From Methanococcoides alaskense (GTDB lineage Archaea; Halobacteriota; Methanosarcinia; Methanosarcinales; Methanosarcinaceae), in NCBI RefSeq assembly GCF_027594145.1, contig NZ_JAQFFK010000003.1:682001-746000 (forward strand): 64,000 nt of DNA, given 5' to 3'. The notes below the pieces were generated by a model that searched no databases, had not been told where the DNA came from, and worked only from the letters and a program-made list of their open reading frames with translations. This document shows positions 9,174 to 14,398 of this stretch, piece after piece (positions within the stretch are counted from its first letter, which is position 1; each line of letters opens with the position of its first letter). The position numbers and the translations under genes were made by a program.

Positions 9174-12100
9174 ATGGTAATAAACACAGCAGATCTGAAT
9201 TCCTCTCAGCAGGAAGAAATTGCCGCCATATTTGGCGACCGTGTGAACTTAAGCAAAAGAGAAAGACACTTCTACTGCCATGATGTCGGTGCATTGCCTT
9301 CAATGGCAAAGATGATGTTAGGCAATACCGATCCTGCAGCAATTGTAAAATTGCGTAATGAGGATGATATTGTCAAACTGATGGAATTCGCGCGAAAATA
9401 TTCTATTCCTATTGTCCCCCGTGCAGGTGCATCATCCGGTTATGGTGGTGTCATTCCTACAAAAGGTGGTATCGTTGCAGACGTCAATCTGCTGAATGAT
9501 ATTGTATCCATTGATACTGAGAACATGACAGTGACCGTTGGAGCAGGTCTCGTTTGGGAACGCCTTGAAAGAAAGCTCAACAAAGAGAACCTCTCCGTAT
9601 GTGCCATGCCTTCAAGTGCTCCGGCAGCAACGGTCGGTGGCTGGCTTGCACAGAACGGTATCGGTTATGGCAGCTATGAATACGGCTGGTCCCAGGATAC
9701 AATGATCTCTGCAAGGGCAGTATTGCCAAACGGTGAGATCAGGGATTTCTCAGGCGATGAGATGGATGCCATCATTGGAAGTATGGGTACCATAGGCATC
9801 ATCACACAGATCACCCTTAATATACGAAATAAAGAAGATACCGCTATAATCTCTGCGGAATTTGCTGATCCGGCATCCATGCAGAAAGCTCTCCAGGCGG
9901 TAAAAGAAGCAAAAGTGCCGCTGTGGTCTATCGCATTTATAAATCCCGATTGGGCAGGCATGAAAAATGAAATGCCATTTTCTACCCATCATGGGGAACC
10001 GGTTGTCGAGGACAGACCGGAATTGCCTAAGTCATATATTTGTAACTTCATTTATCCTGAGTCAAGGGATGTTAGTGCCCTTGAAAATATTATCACCAGC
10101 AATGGTGGAAAAGTCCTTTCTGATTCTATCTCCAAACATGAAGCTGGAGAATGGTTCCGCTCCATGAAGGTAAAAAGGCTTGGTCCTTCCTTTATTCCTG
10201 CAGAGATTATCGTACCTCTGGACAAGGTGGGTAAAGTTGTCAGCGAGATCAAGCAGAAGATAGATCTGCCTGTGCTCATGGAAGGTATGGTGGCAAAGGA
10301 TGGCAATGTCATACTGCTCTGTTTCATACCTCACTCTGAAAGGTCGTTCAAGTTCAACCTCGCATTCACCTTGGGTATCAGTATCGTCAAGATCGCGGAA
10401 GAGAACGGCGGAAGGATATATGCTTCCGGGCTTTATTTTGCAAAAGAGGCAGAGAAGGTCTATGGTAGCCGTCTCAATAAAATGCTTGACCTTAAACAAC
10501 AGGTAGATCCTGCTGACATAATGAACCCTGAGACAATTTCAGGCAAAGGTATTCTCAAGACCGGAATTACATTATCAAAAGCATTCGAGCCAATGATGAG
10601 GTTCGTGGGTAACCGTAGTGGTGTCGGGGTCGAGAAGTTCACTAAACAGAAGGACATTGAAGCCGACATTGTTTCTCATGCTTACACCTGTGCTCAATGT
10701 GGTTATTGTGTCGAGGAATGTGACCAGTACTACGGTCGTGGCTGGGAATCCCAGTCTCCAAGAGGCAAGTGGTTCTTCATCAAGGAATACCTCGCCGGCA
10801 GGGACAAGATGACACAGGAACAGGTGGACACGTTCCTTGCCTGTACTACCTGTGAGCTTTGTGATCACAGATGCCAGCTCGATCTCCCAATTAATGATTC
10901 CTGGATGACCCTGAGGAAAGAACTGGTACTGAACCGTGGCAAGATGACCATCCCACCGTTCGAGATAATGGCTTCCAGTTTGCTTAAAGAGCGAAACATT
11001 TGGGGAGAATATCTTAAGAATAGGGAAGAATGGATTCCTGAAGACCTTAAACCAAAGATCAAGGACAAAGCAGAATACGCCTACTTTGCAGGATGTACTG
11101 CATCCTTTGTGGAGAAGGACATTGCTGAGGCTTCAGTCCGTCTGCTCACAGATGCAGGCCTGGAGATAACATACCTTGGCAAGGAAGAGTCCTGTTGTGG
11201 TATCCCGATGCTTGCAGCCGGTAAGTGGGATGTTTTCGAAAAGATCATGAGAATGAACATCGAGAACATGAAGAAGAAGGGTGTTAAGACCGTTATCACT
11301 TCCTGTCCGGCATGCTGGTTAGTATGGAATACTTTCTATCGCCAGTGGGCAGAGAAGCTTGGCATCGAATACAACTTCGAGGCCAAACACTATTCACAGG
11401 TGCTGGAGGACAAGCTCGATGTGCTTTCTGAGAAGTTCGTCAAACCGCTCGACAAGGTCGTAACTATACACGATGCATGTCACATGGGTCGTGCAGGCGG
11501 AATCTACGAACCACCAAGAAACCTTATTAAAGCAGTACCCGGCGTTGATTTCCGTGAAATGGAACATAACAGGGAGAATGGTCATTGCTGTGGTTCAGTG
11601 CTAACACTGGTCGCAAATCCAGAAGTTGCGAGTGTTGTTGGTAACGTGCGATTGAAGGAAGCCGAGGACATCGGTGCCGAGATCATGGTTGCAGCCTGTC
11701 CATGCTGTCAGGTACAGTTGAGAATAGCTGCCGAGAATAGTGGCAGTCCGGTGGACGTTCAGGATCTTTCGGCAACGGTTGCCCGTAGTCTTGGTTATGA
11801 CATACCTGACACCACGAACGCTGCACTCACAGCCTGGTTAACGTTCGACCAGATGATCCATCTGCTAAGACCTGAGAACATGACCGACCTGATGGTAGAG
11901 CTGCTTCCAGAAATGATGGCTGCAATGCCTGCTCCGCTGCGTGGTATGATGAAGATGGTAAAGTACGTGCCAGGCATGGACCTCATGATGAAGCCAATGA
12001 TGCCTATCATGATGCCAATGCTTCTGCCAGGCATAATGCCAAAGGTCATGCCGGAGATGCTCGAAGCTGTGGGAAGGCGTGTTCAGATGTCCGATGATCT

Positions 12101-12221
12101 GAGAGAACAGATGCCTGATCTCATGCCAGAGGCTATGGGGAATCTGATGCCGAACATGCTTCCGCAGATCGTTCCGCTGCTGACACCGAGGATGATCAAG
12201 TATATTAAAGAGGAATATTGA
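9174..12221 (+). CDS. FAD-linked oxidoreductase with Fe-S and CCG domains and a Met-rich tail
   Basis: The 1015-residue protein fuses a GlcD-like FAD domain (PCMH block PRAGASSGYGG; ENMTVTVGAGLVWERLE) to a GlpC-like part. The latter has ferredoxin motifs CAQCGYCVEECD and CTTCELCDHRC, then two CCG cysteine-rich domains (FAGCTASF...SCCGIP, SCPACW; HDACHMGR...HCCGS, CPCCQVQL), as in heterodisulfide reductase D. D-lactate or glycolate dehydrogenases have this order. Residues about 900-1005 are an unusual tail dominated by Met and Pro (MMPIMMPMLL; MPDLMPEAM). The upstream polyferredoxin-like membrane protein is a likely electron partner. The actual 2-hydroxyacid is not predictable. A GGGGGAG ribosome site supports the start. 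Confidence 0.88.
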   Translation: MVINTADLNSSQQEEIAAIFGDRVNLSKRERHFYCHDVGALPSMAKMMLGNTDPAAIVKLRNEDDIVKLMEFARKYSIPIVPRAGASSGYGGVIPTKGGIVADVNLLNDIVSIDTENMTVTVGAGLVWERLERKLNKENLSVCAMPSSAPAATVGGWLAQNGIGYGSYEYGWSQDTMISARAVLPNGEIRDFSGDEMDAIIGSMGTIGIITQITLNIRNKEDTAIISAEFADPASMQKALQAVKEAKVPLWSIAFINPDWAGMKNEMPFSTHHGEPVVEDRPELPKSYICNFIYPESRDVSALENIITSNGGKVLSDSISKHEAGEWFRSMKVKRLGPSFIPAEIIVPLDKVGKVVSEIKQKIDLPVLMEGMVAKDGNVILLCFIPHSERSFKFNLAFTLGISIVKIAEENGGRIYASGLYFAKEAEKVYGSRLNKMLDLKQQVDPADIMNPETISGKGILKTGITLSKAFEPMMRFVGNRSGVGVEKFTKQKDIEADIVSHAYTCAQCGYCVEECDQYYGRGWESQSPRGKWFFIKEYLAGRDKMTQEQVDTFLACTTCELCDHRCQLDLPINDSWMTLRKELVLNRGKMTIPPFEIMASSLLKERNIWGEYLKNREEWIPEDLKPKIKDKAEYAYFAGCTASFVEKDIAEASVRLLTDAGLEITYLGKEESCCGIPMLAAGKWDVFEKIMRMNIENMKKKGVKTVITSCPACWLVWNTFYRQWAEKLGIEYNFEAKHYSQVLEDKLDVLSEKFVKPLDKVVTIHDACHMGRAGGIYEPPRNLIKAVPGVDFREMEHNRENGHCCGSVLTLVANPEVASVVGNVRLKEAEDIGAEIMVAACPCCQVQLRIAAENSGSPVDVQDLSATVARSLGYDIPDTTNAALTAWLTFDQMIHLLRPENMTDLMVELLPEMMAAMPAPLRGMMKMVKYVPGMDLMMKPMMPIMMPMLLPGIMPKVMPEMLEAVGRRVQMSDDLREQMPDLMPEAMGNLMPNMLPQIVPLLTPRMIKYIKEEY

Positions 12222-12301
12222 TATTTTTGTGTGTTATTTATGGCATGTTCACCATCCCATAAATCTATTTTTTTAATTCATCAATTGTTAGCTGGAGTTT
12301 A

Positions 12302-12390
12302 AGGGCACTTTGCATTACATGAAGCAGAATGCTAGAAGTGATATGACCTTTACTCTCAATGCTCATGTTAGGGGGAGGTTGGAATTATGG
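12302..12390 (+). mobile_element. Transposase C-terminal remnant 1
   Basis: The frame GTLHYMKQNARSDMTFTLNA then HVRGRLELW has no start and no upstream gene. Nearly the same peptide is coded at 30580-30661, with weaker copies at 26947-27027 and 28456-28500. I take these as tails of one decayed transposase family; the family name cannot be given from a tail alone. Confidence 0.5.
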
Positions 12391-12443
12391 CACATATAAA
12401 AAATAAATGTTTCTATTATTTCAAATAGAAGTAAATAGTTTGA

Positions 12444-13766
12444 TTATTTTTTTTGTAATTTTACCAAAAATTGAGTGCTTTGTTTTTGGTGTATAGGAGG
12501 GCACCACAAAAAAAGAGAATTGCCCTTAGTAAAAATTTGTGAATCAAATTCAGAATTATTTTTGTCCCATGTATTTGAATATTGACCATAAGTCCTATTC
12601 ATGGTTAATTGAACTGGTTCATAATCTGAATCTATATGTACTTCGATATAATCAATATTAATTTCATATGTGATATTATTCGTTAAATTGATGTGAAACA
12701 TTTCCACGTTATCAACGTACTTTGGTAATATCTTGTTACTAATTTTTAATTCTGTAGACAAATTAATTTCTTCGGATACAATAGTAGTAATATTTACTTT
12801 AGATGAATCATTGACTACAAAATAGTTATTCTTGTTGATGTCATAATTGTAGTGTTTACCATTAACCGTATTATAAGCTTGTTGTATATGCATATCTGAT
12901 GTTATTTTTACCTATTTCAGAGCTATAGGTGGGTTAATAGTGTAGTACTCAGAGGATATTCTTTCAGCAGAAATATACTTTGGTGGATTCATAGGTAAAA
13001 TTTCAATAGATAGTTCTTTGACTTCTTGTCCTGTTTTAACAATTGAGTAACTAAACAATATATACCCGAATAAACAAGGCACTATAATCAATAAGACTAA
13101 AACGATTATCCGGCTTTTTGCCTTGTATTTGTTATTGAACAGTTCGATGTTCTCTTTGATGTAAGACTGTATATTTGTTAATTCTTTTTTATGTATAGCC
13201 AAATGGATAATACTAAAAATTAATAGCAGTAAAATATTGATGTATAAAGTACCATATATTATTGGAAAATATTCCCTATATCCACTTATTAGAGCAATTA
13301 AACAAAAATCAATTGTGAATATTATTAGAAAAAAGAAAATGATAAAATAACCCATGAATATTTTTTTTACACACGTGTGATTATCGTATAATGCATTTGG
13401 TGACAAGGTTCTAAGATAAGATATTCCTATTAAAAGAACCGCATATACAATGATGTATAAATTCATTAAATAACTGGAAGTATATGAAAATAAATCAAAA
13501 CCATAATAAAAATTAAGGGTTAAAAGATATATTTGAGAGATAGGGAAAACAATTAAGAAAAAAGTAATTGGAACACTAATGATTGAAATTGAAAGTTTTT
13601 CAAAATCTGATAAATCGTTCCATACCTTGCTCTTATAAAAATAAGGGAATACTATAATGAAGCCAATAATGCTTATCAGACTAGATGAAAAACTATGGTC
13701 TGCGAATTCCTTAATAACCATACTTATAAAATCATATAGCATTTGATACATTATGTTCTCATACAA
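12444..13766 (-). CDS. Six-span membrane protein read through an in-frame TAG
   Basis: Two frames, 13766-12912 and 12893-12444, lie in the same phase and are separated only by TAG at 12914-12912 and seven sense codons. Joined, they give about 440 residues: six hydrophobic helices (residues about 24-42, 53-80, 92-117, 130-158, 163-190, 218-240), then a soluble C-terminal domain that runs without a break through NPPIALK, the TAG, VKITSDMHIQQAYNTVNGK and ends in CPPIHQKQSTQFLVKLQ. With TAG nearly unused as a stop here, readthrough as pyrrolysine at residue 285 is the simplest reading; a nonsense mutation is the alternative. No ribosome site is evident before ATG 12893, which speaks against a separate second gene. 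I do not recognise the family. Confidence 0.65.
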
Positions 13767-13874
13767 AATATAAACATTTCTATCTTGTTTTAGATTAAAT
13801 AATAAGCTAGTTTTAATAAAATATAGAAGTAAGTATTCGATTGTGCGACTAACTCACAAAACACCGTTGCCATA

Positions 13875-13925
13875 TTTTTCTTTGTATATATCCCCGATTT
13901 TATGTGCGGGGAGTAGGATTCTAAC
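13875..13925 (+). repeat. Dispersed element, copy F
   Basis: TTTTTCTTTGTATATATCCC leads into CGATTTTATGTGCGGGGAG and a TAGGATTCTAACC tail. The arm CCCCG / CGGGG is retained. It lies in the 245-base gap between the six-span protein and the TfoX-like gene, which holds no gene. Confidence 0.5.
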
Positions 13926-14011
13926 CTATAACACAATCAAAAAAATTAGATATGTATCGATCTTTTTTTATTTTCAATATGGTTATAGATAGAGCTGATA
14001 TACAGATCGCA

Positions 14012-14398
14012 TCAATCTTCTGTCTTTTTTGTTTTCTTTGAAGTTTTTTCCTTTTTCTCTTTCTTTGGAAGAGAGCTCACATAAGCATATGATATATCCA
14101 GCCATTTCCTTAACTCGATCTCATCATCGTAAACAGATGGCGGAAGTATTGCATATTCTCTCATTTGCCTTCCATTTGGTGTGAAAGGTGCTGCTTCATC
14201 GTGTTCAGCATACAATTTTTGCTGGTCCTCTTCTTTAAGGCGTAGCATTATGCCATCGCCATGAACGCCCACGAACATGTTCCCCCTTACAAAATGAACT
14301 GGACTGCCGAACATTTTCCTGAACTCAGCATCGTATTCTGCCACGTATTCTCCGACCAGTTCCCCAAGTTCTTCAGAAGCCTTTTTCCATTTTGTCAT
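14012..14398 (-). CDS. TfoX N-terminal domain protein
   Basis: The 128-residue product has the TfoX/Sxy N-terminal domain pattern: FRKMFGSPVHFVRGNMFVGV, GDGIMLRLKEEDQQ and a C-terminal LRKWLDISYAYVSSL. The last 20 residues are lysine-rich and disordered (KKEKKEKTSKKTKKTED). In bacteria the family includes competence regulators, but stand-alone N-domains in archaea have no known job. The gene stands alone between two long non-coding stretches. Confidence 0.85.
   Translation of the reverse strand: MTKWKKASEELGELVGEYVAEYDAEFRKMFGSPVHFVRGNMFVGVHGDGIMLRLKEEDQQKLYAEHDEAAPFTPNGRQMREYAILPPSVYDDEIELRKWLDISYAYVSSLPKKEKKEKTSKKTKKTED

Follow-up and report, generated by a model that had tools for sequence, protein, structure and literature searches.

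In the methylamine methyltransferases MtmB, MtbB and MttB, UAG is read as pyrrolysine (Pyl) by the pyl machinery, where this conserved residue is regarded as catalytic. The PYLIS element is reported to help this reading without being essential. Archaea that reportedly read all their TAG codons as pyrrolysine were the subject of a report in 2025. The tRNA-His guanylyltransferase Thg1 of Methanosarcina acetivorans contains a Pyl ascribed to neutral evolution (Heinemann et al. 2009, as cited in a review, PMC2933860), and in that review this Pyl is described as translated and not essential. A reporter gene with an introduced amber codon gave 20-30% full-length product in M. acetivorans (PMC2933860). 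The course reported for Thg1, an amber change made survivable by the pyl system, has been proposed in general for amber codons in genomes bearing the pyl genes (PMC3639795), and was argued for 'Ca. Methanomethylophilus alvus' from the low use of TAG as a stop codon (PMC4153887).

The gene described here lies in a stretch of 64,000 nucleotides from Methanococcoides alaskense (the whole stretch is called the window, and the genome G000). It resembles Thg1 in that a gene with no part in methylamine metabolism is interrupted by an amber codon in a single species: the TAG occurs in one genome, the homologues are single chains in which a sense codon takes its place, and the genome carries a complete pyl set. 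Thg1 is an enzyme in which Pyl was physically observed, whereas here we infer it in an uncharacterised membrane protein, where the residue lost is a conserved Trp. The likeness to 'Ca. M. alvus' (PMC4153887) lies in the rarity of TAG stops (1.6% there, 14 of 668 ORFs here) and in ambers scattered over a variety of genes and absent from their relatives, the products being predicted Pyl proteins; the two organisms belong to different orders of methanogens. The same pyl machinery that reads UAG in MtmB, MtbB and MttB would be at work, and mtbB with its TAG is present in this genome. In contrast to the conserved Pyl of those enzymes, however, the Pyl considered here would replace Trp in a single genome.

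Structure, homologues and setting of the interrupted gene

The first-pass annotation, made from the sequence of the window, had described two frames in the same phase separated by one TAG and seven sense codons, and this arrangement was confirmed on the minus strand. The first frame (13766..12912) encodes 284 amino acids and ends with the TAG, the second (12893..12444) encodes 149 amino acids and ends with TAA. Joined, they form the coherent 440-residue protein that had been claimed, with homologues aligning on both sides of the TAG. The 155 codons that follow the TAG without a stop would occur by chance with a probability of about 2e-6, given the gene's own base composition. Since the start of the homologues aligns with the ATG at 13742 (codon 9), the protein probably has 432 residues, with the TAG as codon 277; a start at the TTG (13766) is less probable. 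The proposed six-span topology with the TAG in a soluble domain agrees with the hydropathy profile, which has about six membrane segments within residues 25-238 and places residue 285 in the later polar part. AlphaFold2, run on an alignment of two sequences, gave a model of low quality (mean pLDDT 43) that likewise had helices followed by strands. Searches with the protein gave no match above the curated cut-offs in Pfam and NCBIfam, none at E <= 0.001 in PADLOC and PHROGs, and none of value among PDB sequences. The features of the locus are collected in Table 1.

Table 1. Positions in the window of the interrupted gene, its parts and its surroundings
Feature	Position	Strand	Remarks
Orphan polytopic membrane protein gene	12444..13742	minus	432 codons from homologue-supported ATG; one in-frame TAG; TAA end
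Alternative upstream start TTG	13743..13766	minus	Eight extra codons without match in homologues
In-frame TAG	12912..12914	minus	Codon 285 from TTG, 277 from ATG; Trp in 6/6 aligned homologues
About six predicted membrane helices	13029..13694 (residues ~25-246)	minus	Hydropathy and low-confidence AlphaFold2 model
C-terminal soluble, probably beta-rich domain containing the TAG	12447..13010	minus	Alignment and low-confidence model
AT-rich insert	12222..14000		1.8 kb; membrane-protein gene is sole cargo
FAD/FeS oxidoreductase gene flanking the insert	9174-12221	plus	
TfoX_N gene flanking the insert	14012-14398	minus	

Of 111 searched genomes from the family Methanosarcinaceae, eight have the gene, G000 among them, and a profile search across the order (185 genomes) yielded three further, remote homologues from a second family. 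In other genera the homologues are uninterrupted single frames of 427-447 amino acids covering residues 21-438; the expectation that they would be one chain rather than two genes thus held in both searches. Six of the ten homologous loci are intact (the close homologues in G032, G045, G060 and G061 and the remote ones in G157 and G182), and the other four are damaged, by a frameshift in G064 and G107, as a remnant in G059 and as a short truncated frame in G167. Loss is therefore common in this family, and the G000 copy may just have begun to decay. The frameshift that splits the G064 copy (L095:5025-6301) lies near a run of A and may reflect decay, a sequencing error or slippage. Ten further species of the genus were examined, and the gene is absent from all of them. 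Among the GTDB contigs searched for relatives there was one match, the G107 copy, and the viral contigs searched held no relatives.

The equivalent motif position in the three remote homologues is W, W and Y, so that with the six aligned homologues (Table 1) eight of nine have Trp at the site and one has Tyr. A sense codon, often for Lys, had been predicted there; the sense codon was found, the Lys was not. No homologue found in the family or the order has a TAG at this position, which is confined to G000. Most simply, the event would be a single TGG-to-TAG change. Exchanging Trp for Pyl where an aromatic residue is nearly invariant is drastic, which counts against the reading as Pyl preferred below.

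The gene has a GC content of 26.8%, compared with 36.4% for the window. The insert that carries it occupies a site that differs between sister species (loci L085, L087 and L088 were compared): in G016 and G025 the site is empty, with 34-46 bp between the oxidoreductase and TfoX_N genes in the aligned blocks, and in G022, G019 and G023 a different cargo lies between the two genes. The cargo of G022 is an uncharacterised 423-aa protein, that of G023 includes Mrr_cat, Abi_alpha and C2H2 zinc-finger proteins. No convincing target-site repeats were seen around the insert, and no conserved neighbours of the homologues were obvious. Because it lies alone at a variable site and its homologues elsewhere are solitary too, these comparisons mark it as an accessory gene of an often-decaying family. 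As such a cargo, it most likely codes for a dispensable cell-surface or envelope protein.

Readings of the amber codon

Absence of the pyl system from the strain had been named as an observation that would speak against Pyl, and a complete set was found: pylD, pylC, pylB, pylS and the tRNA-Pyl gene pylT (anticodon cta) are clustered at C1:26833-31203. Among the 11 genomes of the genus examined, pylB was found in all. In G000 pylB itself (G000:C1:28705-29817, minus strand) ends in TAG, with 42 more codons to a TGA and an overlap with pylC. A pylB ending in TAG has been reported for other methanogens (PMC2933860).

We consider it likely that the whole protein is made, with Pyl at residue 277 (285 from the TTG), and that the replacement of Trp is neutral or mildly harmful. 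The accessory gene would have been acquired first, and the conserved Trp codon would then have become TAG in this lineage, a change that the pyl system would make survivable. Pyl is proposed at this residue because the cell has a pyrrolysyl-tRNA with the anticodon CUA, which would read UAG as sense in many genes; ribosomes would insert Pyl here and continue to the ordinary TAA. Since the amber reporter of M. acetivorans gave incomplete readthrough (see above), a mixture is expected, in which some product would be truncated after the membrane part alongside the full form. What was observed directly is that the homologues are single chains with Trp at this position, that the pyl set is complete, and that other conserved domains contain TAG codons; we infer that the mRNA is translated, that Pyl is inserted here, and that the change brings no benefit, being neutral or mildly harmful. 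Nothing was found in support of a selected role for Pyl in this protein. The suggestion of a new Pyl protein outside the methylamine methyltransferases thus stands as far as the likely residue is concerned; as the site is Trp or Tyr in the homologues, it describes a Trp-to-amber change in one genome and not a new class of proteins using Pyl.

The main rival reading takes the gene for a dispensable accessory one on its way to becoming a pseudogene, with the TAG as its first lesion and any full-length Pyl protein incidental. We regard this as unlikely. The damage at other homologous loci, the absence of the gene from the ten other species examined in the genus and its solitary position in AT-rich DNA, inserted where the sisters have nothing or some other cargo, would all fit it. 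However, over 440 codons there is a single lesion, and it is the one kind of stop that can be read in this genome; TAG accounts for about 27% of the one-step nonsense targets in the gene (61 of 227), a share that indels would reduce. Identity to the homologues is alike before and after the TAG in most comparisons, though lower after it in two. An assembly or sequencing error, with TGG as the true codon and an ordinary protein as the product, is improbable. The case hangs on one base, by which the TAG differs from the Trp codon of the relatives, and the draft assembly is about 77% complete, but further conserved genes of the same assembly also contain TAG, in one case in common with the assemblies of other species (see below).

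The position of the TAG after the last membrane helix, where truncation would cut away most of the C-terminal domain, could also suggest a regulated switch, scarce Pyl giving a truncated membrane-only form and plentiful Pyl the full form, with Pyl selected for. Against this, the TAG occurs in a single genome and in no homologue, and the search for a PYLIS-like element after it was negative: Rfam gave no match to PYLIS or to any other family, and the RNA fold was not unusual (fold z-score +1.2). Such a switch is very doubtful, slightly more so than a sequence error. We hold it just as doubtful that the supply of Pyl would set the ratio of truncated to full form, making this an accessory protein responsive to methylamine metabolism in which Pyl works in the C-terminal domain. 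That two separate genes lie in phase by chance has next to no probability. Apart from an ATG eight codons past the TAG this reading is unsupported; the homologues are single-chain, and by eye no ribosome site is visible ahead of the second ATG, as the first-pass annotation had also stated. The second frame was ruled out as a gene of its own because the codons between the TAG and its ATG align with homologous residues (VKITSD here, VKIETN and VRVETE in homologues).

Under the preferred reading of the TAG as Pyl, the gene is a further clear case of amber codons drifting into ordinary genes where a genome reads TAG as sense, in this instance with loss of a conserved Trp. Pyl does not seem to have gained a new use here; the mutation appears simply to be tolerated. 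Standard annotation would split the gene in two or label it a pseudogene.

TAG codons elsewhere in the genome

Stop codons were counted in 864 kb of the genome, taken as stretches that included the window. The 668 called ORFs ended in TAG in 14 cases, in TAA in 309 and in TGA in 345. Coding-like sequence continued past the stop in 6 of the 14 TAG-ended ORFs compared with 49 of the 654 others (Fisher p = 4e-4). In at least 7 of the 14 the TAG lies inside a Pfam domain, the domains spanned being MtbB, Hydantoinase_B, N6_Mtase, PAS_3, HATPase_c, ABC_tran and the TnpB-like TNB; MtbB, a known Pyl enzyme, served as the positive control.

A PAS/GAF sensor kinase gene (G000:C3:809449-811559, minus strand) has its in-frame TAG within the PAS_3 domain. 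The same codon is TAG in two aligned sister species, three species in all, and the orthologue in a fourth genome also has one TAG (loci L019, L100, L101 and L102 were compared). Over the 592 codons past the TAG dN/dS was 0.07-0.08, indicating strong purifying selection. Upstream of it the ratio was 0.39-0.48, which is higher partly because the frame was delimited by a stop at either end, so that sequence ahead of the true start may have been counted in. These alignments make the kinase a conserved candidate Pyl protein outside the methyltransferases.

The TAG in a hydantoinase/oxoprolinase fusion gene (G000:C1:101329-104943, minus strand) is private to this genome. The sisters have CAG or CAT at the site, and the event appears as a private CAG-to-TAG change; one sister, G023, has an in-frame TAG of its own 46 codons earlier (loci L024, L096 and L098). 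The 463 codons past the TAG gave a dN/dS of 0.07-0.09. Because one of these TAG codons is common to the assemblies of other species, TAG inside genes is, as judged from the alignments, a real trait of the genus. The kinase and the hydantoinase show that intragenic TAG is in all likelihood read through in the genus; they are no proof of readthrough in the membrane-protein gene itself.

This wider result is more useful than the single gene: TAG has almost disappeared as a stop, several genes of the genus carry it within conserved domains, one such TAG recurs in several species in a gene under purifying selection, and the genome yields a list of candidate Pyl proteins.

The domain scan covered the TAG cases; in-phase extensions past TAA or TGA were inspected by eye, for those with a late ATG, and resembled neighbouring genes with one possible exception. 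The p-values calculated for domain interruption presuppose that at most one of these TAA or TGA extensions is mid-domain, and no conclusion here draws on them. A single TAA breaks one frame (G000:C3:606374-607297, plus strand), which lacks an ATG in the following 74 codons and is TIR-like by eye before the stop; it is possibly a truly damaged gene.
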